Origin: Spirogloea muscicola
Taxonomy: Eukaryota; Streptophyta; Zygnematophyceae; Spirogloeales; Spirogloeaceae
Length of the DNA: 31,166 nucleotides
Reading direction: 5' to 3'
Assembly: GCA_009602725.1 (NCBI GenBank)
Contig: WELB01000114.1
Location: 294,474 to 325,639 of the forward strand
Shown here: positions 1,947 to 31,166 of the stretch, in pieces
How positions within the stretch are numbered: the stretch's first letter is position 1
Layout of the letters: every line of letters starts with the position of its first letter
Translations under genes and position numbers: made by a program
Notes under the pieces: generated by a model
What the model was told of the DNA's origin: nothing
The model's database searches: none
The model's input: only the letters and a program-made list of their open reading frames with translations

Positions 1947-4360
1947 CTACCTGTCTTCGGGAGCGCTGTTGTGTGTCCAGCTACTGGTCGAGCTTCTATG
2001 AAACTTCCTCTCTGCCAAGTAAGGTATTTCTGCAGAAGTGTTGCTACGACCTGCAGCAGGTATCTGAGCACTGCTGTCAAACATCTCAAAATACCATCCC
2101 CCTTGGTCATGCCTTCTACACCTTGGCTCAAACAGCCAGTACCTGCAAATAGATAACAGAGATTCGAAAATTTTACTGTGCATGCCTATAAGCGGACACA
2201 ATTATGCAGGAAAGCATTGCAGAGATTACCGCATCGTGACAAACCTTTGTGCCACAGGTCTCTGACAGTGCATGGCTGGAGCCCAAAGAAGTAGAACTAC
2301 TGCAGGTCAAATAGCAGGCAAGGGCTAACCTGGAAGAAACCAGATGTGCCCGTCGGGCTCGACAAACACAAGGCTGGCGTGCACCCCGTAGCTCATACCA
2401 CTGCATGTACCGCACCTGCAGGCACCTTCATTGTGCACCCGAGACATCTGTGAGGCCTATCTGTCCATGTGAATGAGATGACAGCTGACTGAGTAGGAAG
2501 GCTAAGCTGCAGACTGACCACTGCAGTGTATACTTCACTGATGGCCTTCATAAAACACACTGCATCACAGCAACACTACAGGATGAAAGACTGATACTGC
2601 TACAGTCTCAAGGCTATATCTCAGACAAACCAAGCAGGCACTTAACAGTAGCCAAGCATGCAAGCTTCCACAGTCAGCGAGGAGGGGAACTGGATCTGAA
2701 GTACACGCTTACCATTGGCAACTGGTGGTGCATTACAGTGTGGGTCCTCCTGCCTTGAGCAGAGAAGATTGAGCAGCTTCTGGCACCATTTACGGTGCTG
2801 CCCAAACCCCAAATCCGGCCCAACAACAGTGGCCTGCCGGGCAGTTCTGCACCGCCTGTACCAAACACACTGACACAGTCCACAGCTTCCTCACCACCGA
2901 GATGCTGCAGCAGCTCCTCCTCCTCGTTCTGACTTACTGGATGCTCAAGAGTATGGGAGCCCTCCCTCAATTGCGCACTCGAGAGGCTCTCTCTCGTCGC
3001 CACTGCGACAATCTTCCCATGAAGCTCGAGTTCCAGGGCGGCAAAGGCGGCCTCTCTCCGCTGGGAGTTGTCTTGCGTTGCCTGCACGGAGCATGCAGCT
3101 CCTCCTGCAGCCCTAGGCTCTCCCCGACGTGACCACTCCTGGCCTGCGCATCTTTCTTCCACGCCCTCGAGTCTCTTCTCTGGCGCTGTCCCGGCTCCAC
3201 CCTCTTCCACTGTCTCAAGCAAGGAGCTGCTCCCAGGATCTTGCGCTGTGACGAGAGTCTGCGCTGCCGTACCGCAGGACTCAATCCCCACCCGGTGGTA
3301 TTCACGCACGGCGCCCAGCAACTGCCGTCCCGACACCAGCTGGAGGACGTCGGGGACCGAGATGTGCGAGCGCTCCTCGGCTTCGAAGCAGGCTGGCAGC
3401 CCCAGCTCCAAGCCCACCTCGAGCGGGGGCCCAAAGTAGGCCCTCTTTAGGGCTGCGTGGAGCTCCCCATGCACCCGGTCTTCAATGGAGGCCCTCAGGT
3501 CCCGCCGGCCAGGCGCGCCGGGAATTGCGGTCGTGTGCACGGCCCTGGTGACGAGCACCCTGTAGTATCGGAGCCACTCGGCCACGTCCGATCCCCCCGT
3601 GTCCCACTCCTGACTGATGGAAGCTTCACCTGCATTGTGATGGTAAGACGAACTGGGCGCCGCCGAAGCACTGGAGCTGGACTGTGATCGAGCAGGGCTC
3701 GCCTGCGCGTCGTAGATGGCGCGGCGACGGGGCTCCGACAGGACCTGCGGACGTCGGAGAGCACCTCTGTCCTTATGTAACAGAGACTCGTGGCAGGAGC
3801 GCCGTTGCGGCTGGCATGACGCGAACCTGGGCCTCTCAACTGCAATGCGGGGCCACAGGTCAGCAGCGGTACCTCGTACGCGGCCGCCAGGCGGATGAAG
3901 AGCTCGGTGTCGTCCGCGCCGGAGCCAGGCTGCGGCGAGCCCGCGCCGGCGGCGGCGGGGCCTGGCCCCCCGCGAGGCCTGGCGTCGGGGTGCAGCCGCT
4001 TGGCCCTGCCGTAGAAGGCACGCTTGATGGCCGCGGCGTCGCAGCCCCGCGGCACGCCCAGCACGGCGTACAGGTCCTGCTCGGCCGCCTCGCCCGGCGC
4101 CGTCGCCAGCAGCCGCGCCTGCACGCCGCTCACCGCGCCGCCAGAGGCGGCGTCAGCGGCGGCGTTCGCCTCGCGTACCGCGCGCGTCCGGCATCGTGAG
4201 CGGCCAGCCCGCACGATCGAGCGCCGAGCTCCCATTCCGGCACGGGGCCGGAGGAGCGCAGCAAGCGTGCACATAGCAAGTAGGGCTGCCTCACCTCGCG
4301 CCGCGCGGCTTGCTGGAGCCGCTGCGCGAGGGCCGCGGCGGAGGCGGCGCGCGCGGCCAT
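1947..4360 (-). CDS. J-domain (DnaJ-like) protein, probably organellar
   Basis: A co-chaperone that should stimulate an Hsp70 through its J domain. Five exons on the minus strand: 4360-4295, 4118-3873, 3744-2713, 2415-2330, 2142-1947. All phases agree (0,0,0,2) and the product is about 541 residues. The start is ATG 4360 in an Ala/Arg-rich, acid-free N-terminus (MAARAASAAALAQRLQQ...) that looks like a mitochondrial or plastid presequence. The J domain spans about residues 37-118: DLYAVLGVP, KRAFYGRAKRLHPD with the catalytic HPD at 65-67, and the YE-VLSEPRRRAIYDAQ end split by the second intron. The middle part contains ALKRAYFGPPLE, LPACFEAEERS and VLQLVSGRQL. The C-terminal exons give VRYMQWYEL, a Cys-containing segment, then WLFEPRC and GGWYFE. 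This layout resembles a plant J-protein family with a conserved C-terminal WLFEPRC...GGWY block; that family comparison is from memory. The function of the C-terminal part is unknown. The last about 35 residues are low-confidence because a short terminal intron cannot be excluded. Confidence 0.85.
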
Positions 4361-4826
4361 GGCCGCGGCGGAGGCGAACGGCGGCGGGCGGGCCCTCCAG
4401 CATTCTCGGGCTGCCGAGTGGCGTTGGCTTCGACTGCCACGTGGGCCTGGCTAGCTGTTGATAAGCGGCGGGCTGCCGGCGGCCGCTACGCCGGCAGCAT
4501 ACGAAGCCGTCGATGAGATCATCGGATGGTGGAAAACGGGTCGGTGGTACCGGGGGGGGCGGCCCGCTCTCCGTGGCCTGCCACTTGGCCGAGCGAGGGT
4601 GGGCGGGCTGGTGGTTGTGAAGCCTGTGATTGGGCGCGCTGCTCACCACGTTGGCACCACGGGCGCCGCTGACTGGCTGCAAGGACGCCAGGCTGGCACG
4701 AGGCATGCCACGCGGCGGCCTCCGGATAAGGGGCGCATCGCGGCGGGGCCAGCTGGCGCCCCGGCCCAGACGGCCCGACGGCTTCAGTATTGCGGCCCCC
4801 CCGGCTGGCCCGCCGCCCCCGCCGCC
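4361..4826. promoter_or_regulatory. Divergent promoter region, J-domain gene and LysM gene
   Basis: GC-rich gap between two outward-facing genes. No TATA box or named motif stands out. The long overlapping open frames on both strands here are products of base composition. If the LysM gene starts at 5218, the region extends to 5217. Confidence 0.45.
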
Positions 4827-5117
4827 ATGGCCGCCTCCGCAGCCGCCGCCGCCGCCGCCGCCGCCGCGGCGTGCGTGCTGACGCTGGCCGCGCTTNGCCC
4901 GCAGCCACCGCCGCACGGGGCTCCGGCGCCGTCCGGCTGCACAGCGCGGGCTGCGATGCGTCTGCGCTGCCGGCGGCGCAGCGGGAGCGAGCGCCGCTCG
5001 CGCCGTCGGCACTCCTTGGCCTGTGCGGCGCACGGCTGCGTCGGCAGGGCTGCTCCGTCCTCGCCCCCCTCCCCAGCCCCTTCCTCCAGCCCTGCCGATG
5101 GCCGACCTGCCTTCCCG
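4827..5117 (+). other. Candidate 5' exon of the LysM/coiled-coil gene
   Basis: ATG 4827 sits in an excellent context (GCCGCCATGG). It opens a 97-codon frame with a poly-Ala start, an Arg-rich middle and a Ser/Pro tail, ending at donor GTGAGC (5118), phase 0. The first usable acceptor in the same phase ends at 5160, which makes an intron of only 43 bp, unusually short. The alternative is that translation starts at ATG 5218 and this stretch is untranslated. One ambiguous base (N) at 4895 falls inside it. Confidence 0.35.
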
Positions 5118-5217
5118 GTGAGCTGAGCTGCCCGCAGCAGCAGCCCCTCGTTAGTGCCAGGTCTCAGTAGGGCATCATGCCCTCCCAAGATCGTTCGTAC
5201 CTCGTGGCTGGAGGAGC

Positions 5218-8200
5218 ATGTATAACAGATTCCCGATCGGGCAAGTGACAAGACTTGGCGCTGAAGCTGCTACTGGTCCCTCGTTGTCTGCAGCCAGTCG
5301 GGGCCTCACCGTGAAGGCCGTCTCGTCGTCCAGAGGCAACAATGCACAAAGCAGCTCCTTTGCGTCGCCTGGAAGTGCTAGCTCCCGGCCATCCCCGCGA
5401 CCGCGGACCTTTGTAAGTCCAGTGTCGACTCCGGCGGCCGCTGCTGTCGCGTGTGTTCAGGGCTTGTCAAGATAGCTCCAGTGTTTCAAGTGCCCTTGGT
5501 CTGGACTCGCGTGTGTTCAGGGCTAGTCAAGATAGCTCCAGTGTTTCAAGTGCCCTTGGTCTGGACTTGGGCTGTGACTGTGGCCTGATCACGTCGTGCT
5601 GTTGTCGCTGCTTTCAGCAGCAAGCTTTGGGCCAGAGGAGCGTGTACAGGGTGCAGCCGGGTGACACGCTCTCCAGGATCGCGGCCAAGCACGGCCTGAC
5701 GCTCTCTCAGCTTCTGGCGTTGAATGTGGGCATGGATGAGGTGATCGTGGAAGGACAGGAAGTCAATGTTCAGTCTGGTGGCAGGCAAGGAAGCCTGGTG
5801 ACTCTGAGAGGCGTCTCAGAGAGCTGGAGAGGCAGCCACTCGTCCTTCTCCAACCAGCCGCAGAGCGGCGCTGCTGCTGGGCCACTGTCTAGGTTCCTGC
5901 TGTACGGGCTCGCGGTAGCGGCCCTTGTTGTGGCCGTCAGGGGATTCTTGTCCAGGCACAGTGCCACAGAGGAGGCTGATATTGAGGAGAGAGGCTCCCA
6001 GCTTCAGCTAGCAAATTTGTCGAGGAGGGCAGACAGGGCCGGGGCGACTGTTTCTGCTGGGGTCACGCAGCGAAGCACGTCCAAGGACGCAGGGGATGAC
6101 GGGACAGCCAGCGGGGCAAGGGCGGCAGCGGCAATGGCTGATCGACACGGGGCTCTGCAGGAGCCGCGGGCTGCCGAGCAGTCAACTCCCACGAGGCAAG
6201 TGGGAGAAAGTCGCCAGGCCGCAGAGGAGGGAGGAAGGAGTCTTGAGCAGGTACTAAGAGATGCGCAGGCTTCCAGCCAGACACAGCTCGCAGGAAAACA
6301 GCAAAAGCTGGAGGATGTCACAGCTCAGCTTGAGCGTGCTGTCATGAAGAGCAAGGAGGTCGGAAGTCTCCAGCTGAAGGCTGTGGAAGAACGGGAGCAG
6401 GCGAATCTCGCTGCTAAGAGAGCCGCCGAAGACTTGCAGAAGCTGGAGGGATCGCACGCCACCTTGGTTGCCCAAGTCGAGGAGCTCCAAGGCAAGCTGC
6501 AGGCCGCATTGCAGGAGAAGAAGGAAGAGGCTGCAAGAAGGGCCGCATTGGAAGATGCTGAGAGGAAGAAGGAGGACGATGTAAAGAGGCTACAGCAGGC
6601 CGTGCAGGAGGTGGAGGGCAGGCTGAGCGAGACGAGCCAGCAGCTCGGGGCGGCGAAGAAGGAGAGTGAGGAAGTCCGGGCAAAGCTGGAAGCTCAGCTG
6701 GACGAAGTTGCAGGTCAGGTGGCTGCATTGCAGAGAGAGGGAAAGGAGGCCAGCGATGCAGAGGAGCAGCTGATCAGCCAGATGGAGCGGGAGCACGAGG
6801 ATGAGATGGGCAGCTTGAAGGCGGTTGCAGCCGTGGAGAAGCGGGTGCTTGAGGAGCAGGTGGATGAGCTCAAGAGGAAGCTTAAGAAGGCCGCTAGGCC
6901 TGGAGCAGCTGTGGCAGATAGCATGGAGACTCTGCAGGTAAGACAAGTCCTTGCCAGTATCCTAACAATACTCGTCGTTCTGCGTGACTTGCAACTGGGG
7001 CACTGTGAAAATCCGTAAGCAGCCCGTGGGCCTGGACTCAACACTCATTGACAGGTTTTGGGCTTCACCTACACCCGTGAATTCTTGAACCTCCTAACAG
7101 ATGCATATTGACCTCGAGTGACCGCAGCGAGAGATGGACGACAAACAACAGCAGCTGTCAGTGACAAGGGAGCTCGTTGACCACTACATGAAGGTTGACA
7201 AGGAGCGCGACCAGCGCATCGTCGAGCTGGAGAGACGCATTGCTGGCAGGAGCTTGTTGACGACCTCCGACGGTAGCTACCCAAGCAGGGCCCATTCACA
7301 CTTGCAATGTTGATGTCGATCTTATACCATCATGACTCATCAACTCTGCAGTGTCATTAATCCAGAAAGCACACTGGAGCAAAGAGCACAGAATCCATCA
7401 TGTTGTATGTGTGCTCAAGCGTTGCTGCACCAGCAGAAGAACAGCTGTTGCTTTGTCAGTGGCCTTGATGGAGCGTCTGCTGGTGCAGGAGCGTTGAAGC
7501 AGCTGCGGCGAGCAGCTTGGTGAAACTCCTGGAACCTGAAGGGGATGCTGGGGAGGACCTTGACCGACTACGGGAGCATATGGAGCAGAGTGAAGCAGGC
7601 CACCGGGAGGAGGTCAAGGGCCTTCTCAGCCAGCTAGATGCCTCTCAGTCTGTTCCTGAGCCAAATCTTGAATTCGCAGAGACCATGCATCAAACATGGC
7701 CCACATTGGCTTCCTTGTGGGCAAGCCTCTTTACACCGTTCTTCAACTCTTTGCACCATCATCCCGGTTAGGTGGCTGCATCGTAACGGTGCTGTTGTTT
7801 TGAGCATCTTGAGTGCAGATCTCTAGCCAAAAAGTTGGAAGCACAAATTGATGAAGCAAAGGAAATGCTTGCTACCGAAAAGCTCAGGAGTAAAGAAGCG
7901 GCTGGGAAGGTGGACACCATGGAGCTCCAAAGCAAGGAGCTGGCTTCAGCTGTCCAGATGGCCAAAGAGCTGGAAAACAGGGCTGATCAGGTGGAAGGCC
8001 TGCTAAAGAGGAGGGAGACGGAGCTGTTGAAGGCCTTAGAGGAAAGGGAGCAGAAGGTCACCCAAGCACAGGAGAGGATAGAGAGCCTGAAGACTGCTGT
8101 GGAGGAGGAAAGGCAGATGAGGTTCGCCAGCCAGGCCAAGGTTGGTGTGAGCAACGACGTACTTAGGCCTGTGGCGGAAGAGAACAAGCGACTCAAGGAG

Positions 8201-10664
8201 GAGCTTGCACAAGCAAAGGCAGGTGTGGCCGCTGCAGAGAGCGAGAATCAGAAGCTCGCCAGGGATCTGGAATGTGTCAGCACGCGGCTTCGGGAGGCAG
8301 AGGATGTCATGTTGAAGCGCCAGCAGGCAAGCGCAGCTGAAGCTGAAAAAGCTCGCGAGCTCGCACAGCAGAGGGAACAAGCAGCTGCACAGGCCCGGGA
8401 AGAAGCAAGGAGTGAGCTGCACAAGGCAATGTCTCTGTTGAAGAAGAGGGACTCAACCGTAGAGGAGATGAAGGCTGAGGCCGTCAGGACAGCTAAGCAG
8501 ATGGAGCAGCTGAAGAGGGAGGCTGCCGAGGCTCTAGCTGCCAAGAAGCGCGAAGGCGCTGAGCTGGAGAAGGTCAGAGCGGAGGCTCATGAAGCTCGTG
8601 CGAAGCTGACAGCCCGGGAAGAAGCAGTGACCGAGCTGCAGAAGGCAATGTCTCTGTTGAAGAAGAGGGAGTCAACCATAGAGGAGATGAAGGCTGAGGC
8701 CATCAGAACAGCTAAGCAGATAAGGCAGCTGAAGAGCGAGGCTGCCGAGGCTCTGAACGCCAAGCAGCGGGAAGCGGCTGAGCTGGAGAGGGCCAGAGCG
8801 GAGGTTCATGAAGCTCGTGCGAAGCTGACAGCCCGGGAAGAAGCAGTGACCGAGCTGCAGAAGGCAATGTCTCTGCTGAAGAAGAGGGACTCATTCATAG
8901 AGGAGATGAAGGCTGAGGCCAGTAGGACAGCTAAGCAGATGGGGCAGCTGAAGAGCGAGGCTGCCGAGGCTCTGAATGCCAAGCAGCGGGGAGCGGCTGA
9001 GCTGGAGAGGGCCAGAGCGGAGGTTCATGAAGCTCGTGCAAATCTGACAGCCCGACAGCCAGACCAGGCTGGGACGGTCGGCAATCTGCAACCGTCTGAG
9101 AGCACAGTCAGCTTGACAGAGCTGGTATTACGTCACCGAGGCATGCTTGCTGATGCAGAGCAGGCGTTCAATCAAGCCCTTGGAACAGGTGTGTAGCGCC
9201 CACCTTCATAGCTGCACATTGTGCCTACCCTGTTGTAGTGCTATTGGAATGCGCACACGTCTGTGCCAAAGTGTGAATGTCATTATGCGAACGCAAGTGC
9301 AAAAGGAGTAAGCCTCTGGGTCATACACGCTTGTTATGTTAGAAGTAGTACTCATGCTACATAAGTCGTCTCAATTGAACAAGGGCGAGCTCGTCGGCAA
9401 GCTCTTCAAGCTGCAGTAGACAGCACTCTCCTACTTGAAGAGAACATGGGCTGCTGTCTGCACGTCTGGGGCTGGCAGAAGTGCAGCCTAGTCACTGACT
9501 GGCACTCCTTCTTGCAACTGCCACTCTCAGACATCACCCCATCTCCAGACGCGTGGGAATTGCTTGGCAACGTGGAAGCTGTGCGGGAGCAGCTCTCTTT
9601 GCTAGAAGAGAGGTTACAGAGTGCCCTGGAAGCAGAGGTCATCAAGGCTCAGCAGCGCGAAGAGGAGCTGGAAGTGAACCTTTCGGTGATGAAGCAGAGA
9701 GAGGCAGATCTAGTGTCACAGCTAGAGCAAGCCCGTGCCTTGTCAGAAGAACAGGCCGGTTTATCTGCGCGGCAGGAGATGGAGCGGCAAGGAGATGATC
9801 AAGGTGCGCACGAAGAGCAGCAGACTTTGACAGCTTTGCAATCACAGCTGGCAGAGCTCAAGGCGCAATATGATGTGCAAGGGAGGCAACTCAAGCTGTT
9901 CAAGAGGCAGGCCGACAGTGTACTGAAGGAAAGGGATGAAGTCACCCAGGTTCTGAAAGAACAACATCAGCAGGAGATAGCCCAGCTCAAGGAAGACCTC
10001 ATGCAAGAGTAGGTCATGTGCACAAGCCCCGAGCATGCTTGTACTCATCTCATCTTGATTAACCTCCAGAAGTCCACTGCTTTTCAAATACTGCTGGGAT
10101 ATTCACAGGTCTCGAATGAAAAGATTAGCTCAACCACATGTTGCTCGCGACTTAGATTCCATAGCATCAAGTCCGTGGACCTGGAGAGGCCCACCTTTGT
10201 ATGGTCTCACTTCTGCAATCTTGGTGCCTGCCAGGTTCCGTAGGACACCTGAGACGCCAAGGGAGGTCCTGGAGGAGGGAGCTGGCGAATGGACGAAGGA
10301 GCTAGAGCATGAGGCTGCACGCCTCTCCATACAGGAGCCAGGCTCCAGAGATGCAAGGTCTATCACTAGGCCAGAGCTTGAGAAAGGGCCCGCGGATGAG
10401 GCCGCAACCCCGACACAGGCGCTGGCTGGCCTGGATGAGAGGCTACGGGCAGCCGAGGACAAGGCTGAGCAGCTTGCTACCGAGGTGCGCCAGCGGGTAA
10501 CTAGGCAGATGGAGTGGACGGGGGGACCCACGGAGCTCCGCAAGAGTGACGGCAACGGCAGCTACAACAGCAAGGGGGATGTACAGCGAGCGCAGGAGAT
10601 TAAGGAACGTGTGGCTGCAATGTGGCAACAGATGCTTCCAAAGAAAAGTGCCCGAGACCCATAA
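5218..10664 (+). CDS. LysM-domain, single-pass membrane, long coiled-coil protein
   Basis: Not a family I recognise as a whole. Hand-built exons: 5218-5412, 5618-6937, 7128-7272, 7500-7647, 7819-9188, 9384-9455 (tentative), 9531-10008, 10109-10664. All junction phases agree and the product is about 1,427 residues. Order of parts: a Ser/Ala/Arg-rich N-terminus with a TVKA-VSSS site that looks like plastid transit-peptide cleavage; LysM at about residues 74-118 (VYRVQPGDTLSRIAAKHGLT ... LLALN ... VIVEGQEVNV); a membrane helix at about 158-176 (FLLYGLAVAALVVAVRGFL); then Glu/Lys/Gln/Ala-rich heptad coiled coil to the end. It holds about three copies of a 73-residue repeat near 797-1013. LysM modules bind N-acetylglucosamine glycans such as peptidoglycan or chitin. 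A role tethering a membrane to such a polymer is inference. The exon 7500 and 9384 boundaries use weak sites (AAG acceptors, GTCTGT/GTCTGC donors) and are the least sure. The gene might begin at 4827. Confidence 0.75.
5447..5566 (+). repeat. 60-bp tandem duplication in an intron
   Basis: Two head-to-tail 60-bp copies (5447-5506 and 5507-5566) differ at one clear position (T at 5465, A at 5525). Both contain GTGTGTTCAG. They lie in the intron just before the LysM exon, whose acceptor is at 5617. The unit length is a multiple of three and the frame into the LysM exon stays open across it. Confidence 0.9.
8402..9050 (+). repeat. 219-bp (73-residue) coding tandem repeat, three copies
   Basis: AAGGCAATGTCTCT recurs at 8423, 8642 and 8861, exactly 219 bp apart. 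Each unit encodes ELxKAMSLLKKR(D/E)S, then EEMKAEA, TAKQ, and an Ala/Glu/Arg helix ending KLTAREEAVT. Copies 2 and 3 are the most alike, and the third fades at about 9050. The unit is fully within one exon of the LysM/coiled-coil gene. Confidence 0.92.
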
Positions 10665-14585: not shown

Positions 14586-19116
<4,531 letters not shown>

Positions 19117-19853: not shown

Positions 19854-26054
<6,201 letters not shown>

Positions 26055-29226: not shown

Positions 29227-31166
29227 CTAGCCAGACACGGTTGACGTGGGTGCGCCAGCCTTGCATGCGTTGATCAGTACCACGTCCAGGAGCAGACGAG
29301 GCCCACCGCCCCGGGGGGTGGCGACCACATCCAGACGCCGCACATATGGCTTGCAGCGGCTTGAGGAGATTGGCATGATGCCGGACACCTCCATCGCCGG
29401 ATGATACCCCGCCTCTCGCACAATTCCAAACATAGTGTCCCTGATTAAGTCGTGGGAGGCAATGCGCTCACCCCCCTCAACACATCTTCGCATATGAGCA
29501 GCTAGATCGATCATCGGCAATGTGGCCACACTCGCACTGGCAGATGGCAGCCAAGCAAGGGGGGGGGAGGCCGAGGCGGTGGTGGAGCGCTGTGCGAAAG
29601 AGGTTGTCTGTGAGCCGAAGGGACTAGTATATCGGCAGAGCGTTTAGCCACTCAGACGCGCCCGTGGAGCTGATGGAAAGGAGCCAGGTGGGGCCACGTC
29701 CATCGTCCTTGAGCAGTCTTTTCAATTCAAGGCGGCCTGCACGTCCCCAGCGTGAGTGTAGTGCGCCTGCGCTTTCCTGTCAGAACAGCGTGCCCATGCG
29801 GCAAAATCTACATGACCCTCTGCAGGTGTTGGTAAAGAGCGCGAGAGGTCATGCAGTGCTGCGGTCAGGGAAAGCTGGAAGGGTAGGTTCTCTGTTGCAA
29901 CACCCGCTATAGTGGGTGCTAAAACAGCCTGGCCCCTCAGGATGAAGCGACTGGAGATGGTGGAGGCCACTTGGGCCCAGCAACCCAGGTGAGCTGCTTG
30001 GGACAGGCGAGCCAGTGGACGGCACCCAAGGCCGCCTTTGCTGGTAGGAAGGGTACACTGTAGGATGGCAGCCGGCGTGGCAGATGCATTGGGATGGTCC
30101 ACCAGGCCGTGAAGAGCCTGTTGGAGTCTGGAGTCCACGGTAGAGTAGATGGCGCTTAGTGCAGAGGTGGGGGGAACAGTCCGCAACAGGTAAGTGGGAC
30201 GCTGGGCCACATAGCGGGTGAGGATGGCCACCGCAAGCTGCGTGTCCTGTAAGGAGGGGAGGGCCGGAAGGGTCTGGAGATGGTTCTCAAGGGTGGACTC
30301 CACAACTTGCTCCACATGCCGAGCAGCCCCCAACGGGGCTCCAAGCACCACCATGCCGATTGGTGGGGTCTGGCACCCAGCCGGCAGCTTGATGGAGGGA
30401 GGGATGCCGGCTGGAGACCAGGCTGAACCCTTCTCGGCCCGGATGTTGAGGCCGAGGCTGTGAAGCTCGCGCTCCAACGTGCTGTAAGCGCTGGTGACTT
30501 CAGTCGGGAGTCCCACCATGGTGGTGTCGTCGGCGTAGCTTGGGACTAGCACAGCAGGGTGGGCCTCCGCCGTATTACGCAGCGCCCGTAGGTGTGCCAG
30601 TGCAAAGAGGAACCCAACCAAAGGCTCCCTGCCGGGTGCCTGTGCTGGATTGCAAGACCACCTGTGACGTGCCCGCTCCCCAGAGCAGGCGGGAGGGTGC
30701 TCCGTAGGAGCACCGGAAGAAAGGGATGAGGGAGGGGGAATGCGTGCGCAGCTCCTCGACGATGACACCTCTGTCAACGCTGTTAAACGCATTCTTCACG
30801 TCCACTGAGAGCGCCATCCAATCGGAATTGCAATCCAGGGCATCCTGTAGACCATGAACCACTGTCTCCGCGCCTGCAGACAGCCCTGCGCCAAGCTGGT
30901 GGGGGGAGAAGTGGAGCTGCGCCGCCTCTCTGTTCTGCTGGAATAGGGTCTTTGAAACCAGTCGGGTAAGGACCTCGCCCATCGCAAGTTGGTCGGACGC
31001 CTCCGGTGGGCTTGGAAAGAGCGAGCAGGGTCCTGCTGTGAGTGCCGCCCGGGCCTTGGGTGGGAGAAGGCCGCGCGCCACCGCTTGGCACACTTTGTGC
31101 AGCAGACTGAAGTCACCCGCCTCGTCGTCCAGCCAGAGCTCGCGAAGGTGTTCAAAGAGCATGCCC
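29227..31166 (-). pseudogene. Broken non-LTR retrotransposon ORF (RT plus endonuclease-like C-terminus), 5'-truncated by the window
   Basis: Reverse transcriptase of a LINE-type mobile element, read right to left from beyond the window edge. Seen: VDVKNAFNSVDRG (motif A, Asp), a GTRQG motif, then, in a different frame, FALAHLRAL and the catalytic YADD (SYADDTTMVG). The thumb-like part follows, with PTSKGGLGCRPLARLSQAAH. Further on are LRLTDNLFRTALHHRLGLP, Cys/His residues of a zinc knuckle, SHDLIRD, and RRLDVVATP...LLLDVVL, which resembles the restriction-like endonuclease end of R2/NeSL-like elements. It is disabled: there is a frameshift in the GTRQG region (about 30690), another after 29722, an in-frame TAG near 29620, and a further shift near 29530. 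The 3' tail continues into 28725-29226. Family assignment below non-LTR is uncertain. Confidence 0.85.

Follow-up and report, generated by a model that had tools for sequence, protein, structure and literature searches.

The window, a 31,166-nucleotide stretch of DNA (57% GC, two N), carries a gene for a protein of unusual architecture, in which one LysM domain is followed by one membrane helix and then by two blocks of heptad coiled coil that together span about 930 residues. This architecture is real. The same order had been proposed in an earlier note on this DNA, and it is recovered at the positions given in Table 1 by Pfam, Kyte-Doolittle hydropathy, AlphaFold2 (AF2), and periodicity analysis. 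We put at roughly 45% the probability that the protein is a membrane-anchored green-algal tether, with the LysM on one side of the membrane and a dimeric rod on the other, and that it fixes a scaffold at one membrane domain.

The gene model comprises seven exons on the + strand (5218-10664) and encodes 1,398 residues plus a stop codon with no internal stop. The junctions were placed by hand, and the six GT-AG introns (171 to 230 nt) have matching phases throughout. The stop-free frame containing exon 2 extends for 533 codons, compared with a longest of 385 in 200 mononucleotide shuffles of 5218-10664, and six of the seven exons have a coding-like GC pattern that is low at codon position 2 (about 0.7/0.4/0.65), with exon 1 the least coding-like (0.51/0.71/0.58). 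Exon 2 contains the LysM, the membrane helix, the linker, and the start of the coiled coil in a single open frame, but this frame lacks any ATG upstream of the LysM, and at least one upstream exon is therefore needed. We counted 86 splice-compatible upstream first-exon chains, and the chosen exon 1, which begins at the first ATG downstream of an in-frame stop (5152-5154), is the simplest of the possible ones; it carries all of the targeting information and is the weakest part of the model. Neither TGTAA nor AATAAA is present on the + strand from the stop codon to 12.5 kb, and the 3' end is thus unsupported. We note that intron 1 holds a 60-bp tandem duplication (98% matching) at 5447-5567.

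Table 1. Features of the LysM gene and its product; coordinates are those of the window, and a slash marks an exon boundary.
Feature	Position	Strand	Residues	Remarks
Exon 1	5218-5412	+	1-65	Possible organelle transit peptide; donor TTT/GTAAGT, phase 0; weakest exon
Exon 2	5618-6937	+	66-505	440 open codons; splice sites TTTCAG/CAG and GCAG/GTAAGA
LysM domain	5645-5767	+	75-115	Pfam, PDB phmmer, AF2, Foldseek
Single membrane helix	5882-5962	+	~154-180	Hydrophobic core 158-172; Kyte-Doolittle, AF2
Main coiled coil	6218-9148	+	~266-1045	Three introns within span; end approximate; periodicity tested to residue 1025
Exon 3	7128-7272	+	506-553	Acceptor CAG/CGA, donor ACG/GTAGCT; in phase
Exon 4	7503-7647	+	554-601	Phases agree with those of exons 3 and 5; weak donor CTCA/GTCTGT
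Exon 5	7819-9188	+	602-1058	Acceptor GTGCAG/A, donor ACAG/GTGTGT
Tandem repeats	8383-9054	+		About three 219-bp units (73 residues each) within the coiled coil; Tandem Repeats Finder, 3.1 copies, 91% match
Exon 6	9417-10008	+		Trp/Cys-rich insert (~1060-1101) and second coiled coil (~1102-1254); phases match
Exon 7	10235-10664	+		C-terminal tail; acceptor TGCCAG/GTTCC, open until stop codon TAA

Several other genes are recognizable in the window. A divergent neighbor with a DnaJ domain (Pfam E 3.4e-8) lies on the - strand at 3498-4259, and the stretch between it and the LysM gene (4,200-5,200) is 64 to 87% GC in 100-bp steps and may be a shared promoter region. Pieces of a thiolase gene are present at 14725-16642 on the - strand (Thiolase_N E 3.2e-15, with Thiolase_C under its cut-off); PDB matches to the thiolase exon are led by 2wua, then 2c7y and 2wu9 (both 3-ketoacyl-CoA thiolase 2), with 2iik ranked lower, and we take the first three to be plant proteins and the last to be human. 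Together with the introns and the base composition, this ranking suits a green-algal source. Pieces of an MCM6 gene are at 19929-25186 on the + strand (MCM_N E 4.3e-10, MCM lid E 1.1e-16, and the MCM6 C-terminal domain under its cut-off), and open frames at 29725-31165 on the - strand resemble a LINE-type reverse transcriptase by eye, but Pfam finds nothing in them at E up to 0.01.

The domain belongs to the LysM family (PF01476), as it both scores above the curated profile cut-off and has the strand-helix-helix-strand fold. The earlier note had placed a LysM at residues 74-118, and the Pfam profile search finds it at 75-115 (E 1.2e-10, 41.5 bits versus a cut-off of 20.9). Among 16 distinct PDB sequences matched by phmmer at E up to 1, LytE (8i2e) is the best (E 1.7e-14, summed over repeats), and the NlpC/P60-type protein 4uz2 is second (E 2.4e-8). 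AlphaFold2, given the LysM-helix segment and 15 bacterial LysM pieces (overall mean pLDDT 74, pTM 0.43), models the strand-helix-helix-strand core with block-mean pLDDT of 92 to 96 (segment residues 11-50). The top Foldseek ranks are all LysM structures; the two matches at E <=0.001 are both chains of the 4uz2 NlpC/P60 endopeptidase, and next is the LysM of the Volvox chitinase 5k2l (E 1.6e-3, 35% identity), such that the nearest LysM folds are those of peptidoglycan enzymes and chitinases, an algal one included. The human LysM solution structure 2djp is among the weaker matches (phmmer E 0.043, Foldseek rank 25), and the eight NCBIfam matches all overlap the LysM and are all far under their cut-offs. 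Intracellular eukaryotic LysM proteins exist (the LYSMD and TLDc types), and a LysM alone is thus no proof of glycan binding.

The membrane helix has a Kyte-Doolittle value of 2.2 over residues 158-176, and 19-residue windows at >=1.6 are confined to residues 152-177; AlphaFold2 predicts a helix at residues 154-180, with block-mean pLDDT of 70, 91, and 75 across it. Arg 157 flanks the helix on its N-side, and Arg 173, Arg 178, and His 179 flank it on its C-side, with acidic residues after. This slight positive bias on the coiled-coil side slightly favors a rod on the cytosolic or stromal face. There is no Arg-Arg pair immediately ahead of the helix. Residues 1-70 are rich in Ser, Ala, and Arg, with one acidic residue, and a hydrophobic signal peptide is absent from them in the preferred model (best 11-residue Kyte-Doolittle, 0.67). 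The plastid transit peptide that the earlier note thought possible is compatible with this N-terminus, although composition is no proof and it would be encoded in the least coding-like exon. An alternative upstream ATG at 4827 (4827-5117, + strand) has an alanine-rich hydrophobic start and would give a different N-terminus via some splice chains.

The coiled coil had been put at about 1,200 residues; a long heptad coiled coil is indeed present, but its length is about 930 residues, in blocks at ~266-1045 and ~1102-1254, with a linker and a tail that give no clear signal. For each segment, we set the strongest hydrophobic period within 3.4 to 3.72 against those of 500 shuffled versions of its hydrophobic pattern. 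The whole span 266-1230 has a periodicity of ~3.5 residues that none of the 500 shuffles reach, and within it the numbers of shuffles reaching the observed value are 3 (266-390), 0 (391-505), 9 (506-600), 0 (601-800), 0 (800-1025), and 4 (1100-1230), with best periods of 3.46 to 3.58. The corresponding counts are 236 of 500 for the linker (186-265) and 48 of 500 for the tail (1231-1398). Net charge is -18 for residues 266-1045 and -14 for 1111-1256. With exon 6 alone, AlphaFold2 predicts helices at ~1102-1181 and ~1186-1254 after a low-confidence start, and the Trp/Cys-rich insert between the two blocks (residues 1060-1101; window 9419-9544) has a low-confidence model with no long helix and no family at its cut-off in Pfam or NCBIfam. 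The rod likewise has no Pfam family at cut-off. CC_CEP152-bind (E 0.0012, 18.7 bits, cut-off 21), DUF948 (15.2 bits, cut-off 37.2), and Exonuc_VII_L (9.4 bits, cut-off 35.9) were dismissed as generic coiled-coil matches.

The rod seems to have been recently lengthened by duplication, as the second and third of its tandem repeat units (aligned at 8378-9034) differ at only 11 of 219 bases. Differences between units by codon position (9/12/15, 10/15/12, and 3/3/5) are spread about evenly, so they show no trace of purifying selection and do not argue for coding.

The LysM, the helix, and ~240 coiled-coil residues (266-505) are encoded in one uninterrupted exon, and no splicing event can therefore detach the LysM from the whole coil. 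This largely excludes the outcome that the earlier note had named as its refutation, a transcript in which the LysM exon is separate from the coiled-coil exons. It also weighs against a fusion in the model of two genes, one for a LysM-membrane protein (exons 1 and 2) and another for a separate coiled-coil protein (exons 5 to 7), which we consider extremely improbable. In favor of such a fusion, exons 3 and 4 measure only 145 nt apiece and the model includes a weak donor, but all six GT-AG junctions match in phase and there is heptad signal on both sides. The + strand also lacks TGTAA and AATAAA from exon 2 to the stop, a weak argument as there is none beyond the stop either.

In the proposed tether, the coiled coil would dimerize into a rod standing off one membrane face. 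Coiled coils rise 0.15 nm per residue, and the first block, if unbroken, would form a rod of ~115 nm. The LysM on the opposite face would pin the anchor, most likely by holding a GlcNAc-containing glycan, and the protein could then fix a scaffold at one membrane domain, perhaps in the manner of FimV/HubP in bacteria or MFP1 on thylakoids. A tether or scaffold had been suggested before, and a membrane anchor joined to a glycan-type head and a long dimeric rod is most naturally read in this way, although it is from these parts that we infer the function.

The plastid is our tentative choice of compartment, given the lack of a secretory signal peptide, the basic Ser/Ala-rich N-terminus, and the slight positive bias on the coiled-coil side of the helix; the rod would then face the stroma, with the LysM on the side of the intermembrane space or thylakoid lumen. 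A more elaborate version, which we regard as very improbable, is a plastid counterpart of the bacterial polar hubs, in which a LysM housed in the thylakoid lumen or between the two envelope membranes would grip a relic or re-purposed GlcNAc glycan, and the dimeric rod in the stroma would mark a division, pyrenoid, or eyespot site. Core green algae, Chlorella among them, are not known to have more of the peptidoglycan pathway than MURE, DDL, MRAY, and MURG. Passages of one study describe these four alone as present throughout Viridiplantae, with the rest lost repeatedly and the full pathway retained in some prasinophytes (PMC4815162); with the pathway mostly lost, a plastid peptidoglycan ligand is doubtful. 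The cited papers disagree on plastid peptidoglycan in green algae, however, as the LysM/LytM hydrolase DipM was not found in green algae according to an excerpt of PMC4015805, whereas an excerpt of PMC9954125 describes evidence as mounting that the chloroplasts of green algae have a peptidoglycan layer. If the protein is plastid located, the question becomes what ligand of the GlcNAc type is left in a lineage believed to have shed most of this pathway.

Other locations and roles have to be weighed against the tether. Chlorella-type algae have a chitin-like glucosamine wall, and chitinase LysMs are among the nearest folds in Foldseek, both of which would suit a cell-surface anchor with its LysM outside the plasma membrane on a GlcNAc-containing wall and its coiled coil in the cytoplasm, linking the wall to the cytoskeleton or cortex. 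This is doubtful, as the simple model has no signal peptide and signal-less export of a 150-residue N-terminal tail would be unusual. Through certain splice chains, the ATG at 4827 could provide such a signal, but its chain with the most convincing donor (GTGAGC) would call for an intron of 43 nt, compared with 171 to 230 nt in the model, and chains from this ATG with introns of 145 to 346 nt rely on GTGCG-type donors (among the 14 of 86 chains listed). Also unlikely is an endomembrane protein resembling animal LYSMD3/4 with an added rod, acting as a golgin-like vesicle or membrane tether in which the LysM does not bind glycan. LYSMD3 and LYSMD4 are animal proteins in which a LysM precedes one membrane helix without a signal peptide, as here, but they are small and have no long rod; the human 2djp structure is one of our weaker matches, and bacterial and plant-type LysMs match better in both sequence and fold. 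Golgins are long rods with one membrane helix, but theirs is at the C-terminal end, unlike that of the window protein.

A thylakoid or pyrenoid scaffold, the green-algal functional counterpart of MFP1 or SAGA1/2, would position starch or the Rubisco matrix and use the LysM as its carbohydrate module. This is quite improbable, and we know of no LysM that serves as a starch-binding module. There are 0 matches in the window protein to the consensus of the Chlamydomonas Rubisco-binding pattern, although this is a weak test, as the pattern is described as restricted to Chlamydomonas relatives in passages of PMC13167743. In favor of such a scaffold, MFP1 has a predicted transit peptide, a membrane anchor, and a C-terminal coiled coil (passages of PMC10801857), and the parts of PMC13167743 at hand speculate that SAGA counterparts with carbohydrate-binding domains exist in other algae.

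A full-length relative was not found in viral, bacterial/archaeal, or plasmid collections, a non-eukaryotic scope that says little about relatives. With the LysM-membrane part as query, viral contigs gave one match, covering 16 LysM residues only, and with the C-terminal part they gave none; at least 16 loci in bacterial and archaeal genome contigs and one in plasmids match, all in the LysM only. None of the 17 loci among the matches listed, two of which are truncated or N-masked, has a hydrophobic stretch after the LysM in its open frame (Kyte-Doolittle >=1.7 over 19 residues). In the open-access literature, covered as titles, abstract starts, and passages, no protein is described with the order LysM, membrane helix, and long coiled coil; the available passages of PMC11289646 and PMC4678213 contain nothing on this layout, and a lectin survey names algal LysM combinations without the word 'coiled' in the main text available (PMC6362431). 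Very large algal LysM proteins do exist, as an algal 'Lysine motif' protein is tabulated with phosphosites at residues 2264 and 2290 in an excerpt of PMC5441111. Excerpts of other papers report one LysM protein unique to Prototheca wickerhamii (PMC7941945) and a Trebouxia chitinase with LysM (PMC12712428), and the green-algal LysMs in the passages and structures covered belong to chitinases, to MIN1, or to proteins that also carry peptidase, F-box, or other lectin domains (passages of PMC12712428, PMC6362431, and PMC3276157).

Among known systems, the closest functional parallel is offered by the FimV/HubP proteins of bacteria. Like the window protein, they have a LysM on the N-terminal side of one membrane helix and a very long acidic region C-terminal to it, although that region is largely unstructured in FimV/HubP and a heptad coiled coil here (PMC12918733, passages). 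They form a LysM-membrane-cytoplasmic hub in which the LysM binds peptidoglycan and is needed, together with a second periplasmic domain, for polar placement, as described in the same passages of PMC12918733. The FimV-type TPR domain is not among Pfam or NCBIfam models at E up to 1 in the C-terminal 340 residues of the window protein, and in the preferred model residues 1-70 have no hydrophobic stretch that could act as the signal peptide delivering the LysM to the periplasm. The window protein is therefore not filed under FimV/HubP, and its gene is eukaryotic and intron bearing. MIN1 of the Chlamydomonas eyespot, a C2/LysM protein tied to the organization of this plastid structure, is likewise a green-algal LysM protein of unusual architecture (PMC3276157, in part). 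Pfam gives no match to a C2 domain across the three parts that cover the whole window protein. The membrane span of MIN1 lies between its C2 and LysM, and in place of a C2 the window protein has a C-terminal part of ~1,200 residues.

Plant-lineage comparisons are similarly partial. PPASP, found in streptophytes with the peptidoglycan pathway, also combines one LysM with one membrane helix, but its 21-residue membrane region is N-terminal and its LysM C-terminal, whereas the LysM precedes the helix here, and the passages of PMC4815162 describe no coiled coil to compare with the long C-terminal part of the window protein. In MFP1, a putative transit peptide and a single membrane anchor close to the N-terminus precede a long C-terminal coiled coil, and the window protein has the same succession of membrane anchor and coiled coil; MFP1 differs in having a Tat signal and, in the passages of PMC10801857, no LysM is described. 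It is a thylakoid-anchored coiled coil that places starch granules, even when retargeted to the inner envelope (PMC10801857, same passages). SAGA1 and SAGA2 of the Chlamydomonas pyrenoid also pair a carbohydrate module with a coiled coil in an alga, but they have CBM20 where the window protein has LysM, and Rubisco-binding motifs in addition (PMC13167743, in part); the Pfam search finds no CBM20 in the window protein. Membership is thus shown in none of FimV/HubP, PPASP, MIN1, MFP1, SAGA1/2, and LYSMD3/4, and the order matches no named family compared here, in agreement with the earlier note, which could not name the architecture. An algal tether built from a membrane-fixed LysM and, at its far end, a very long rod would be of a new kind.
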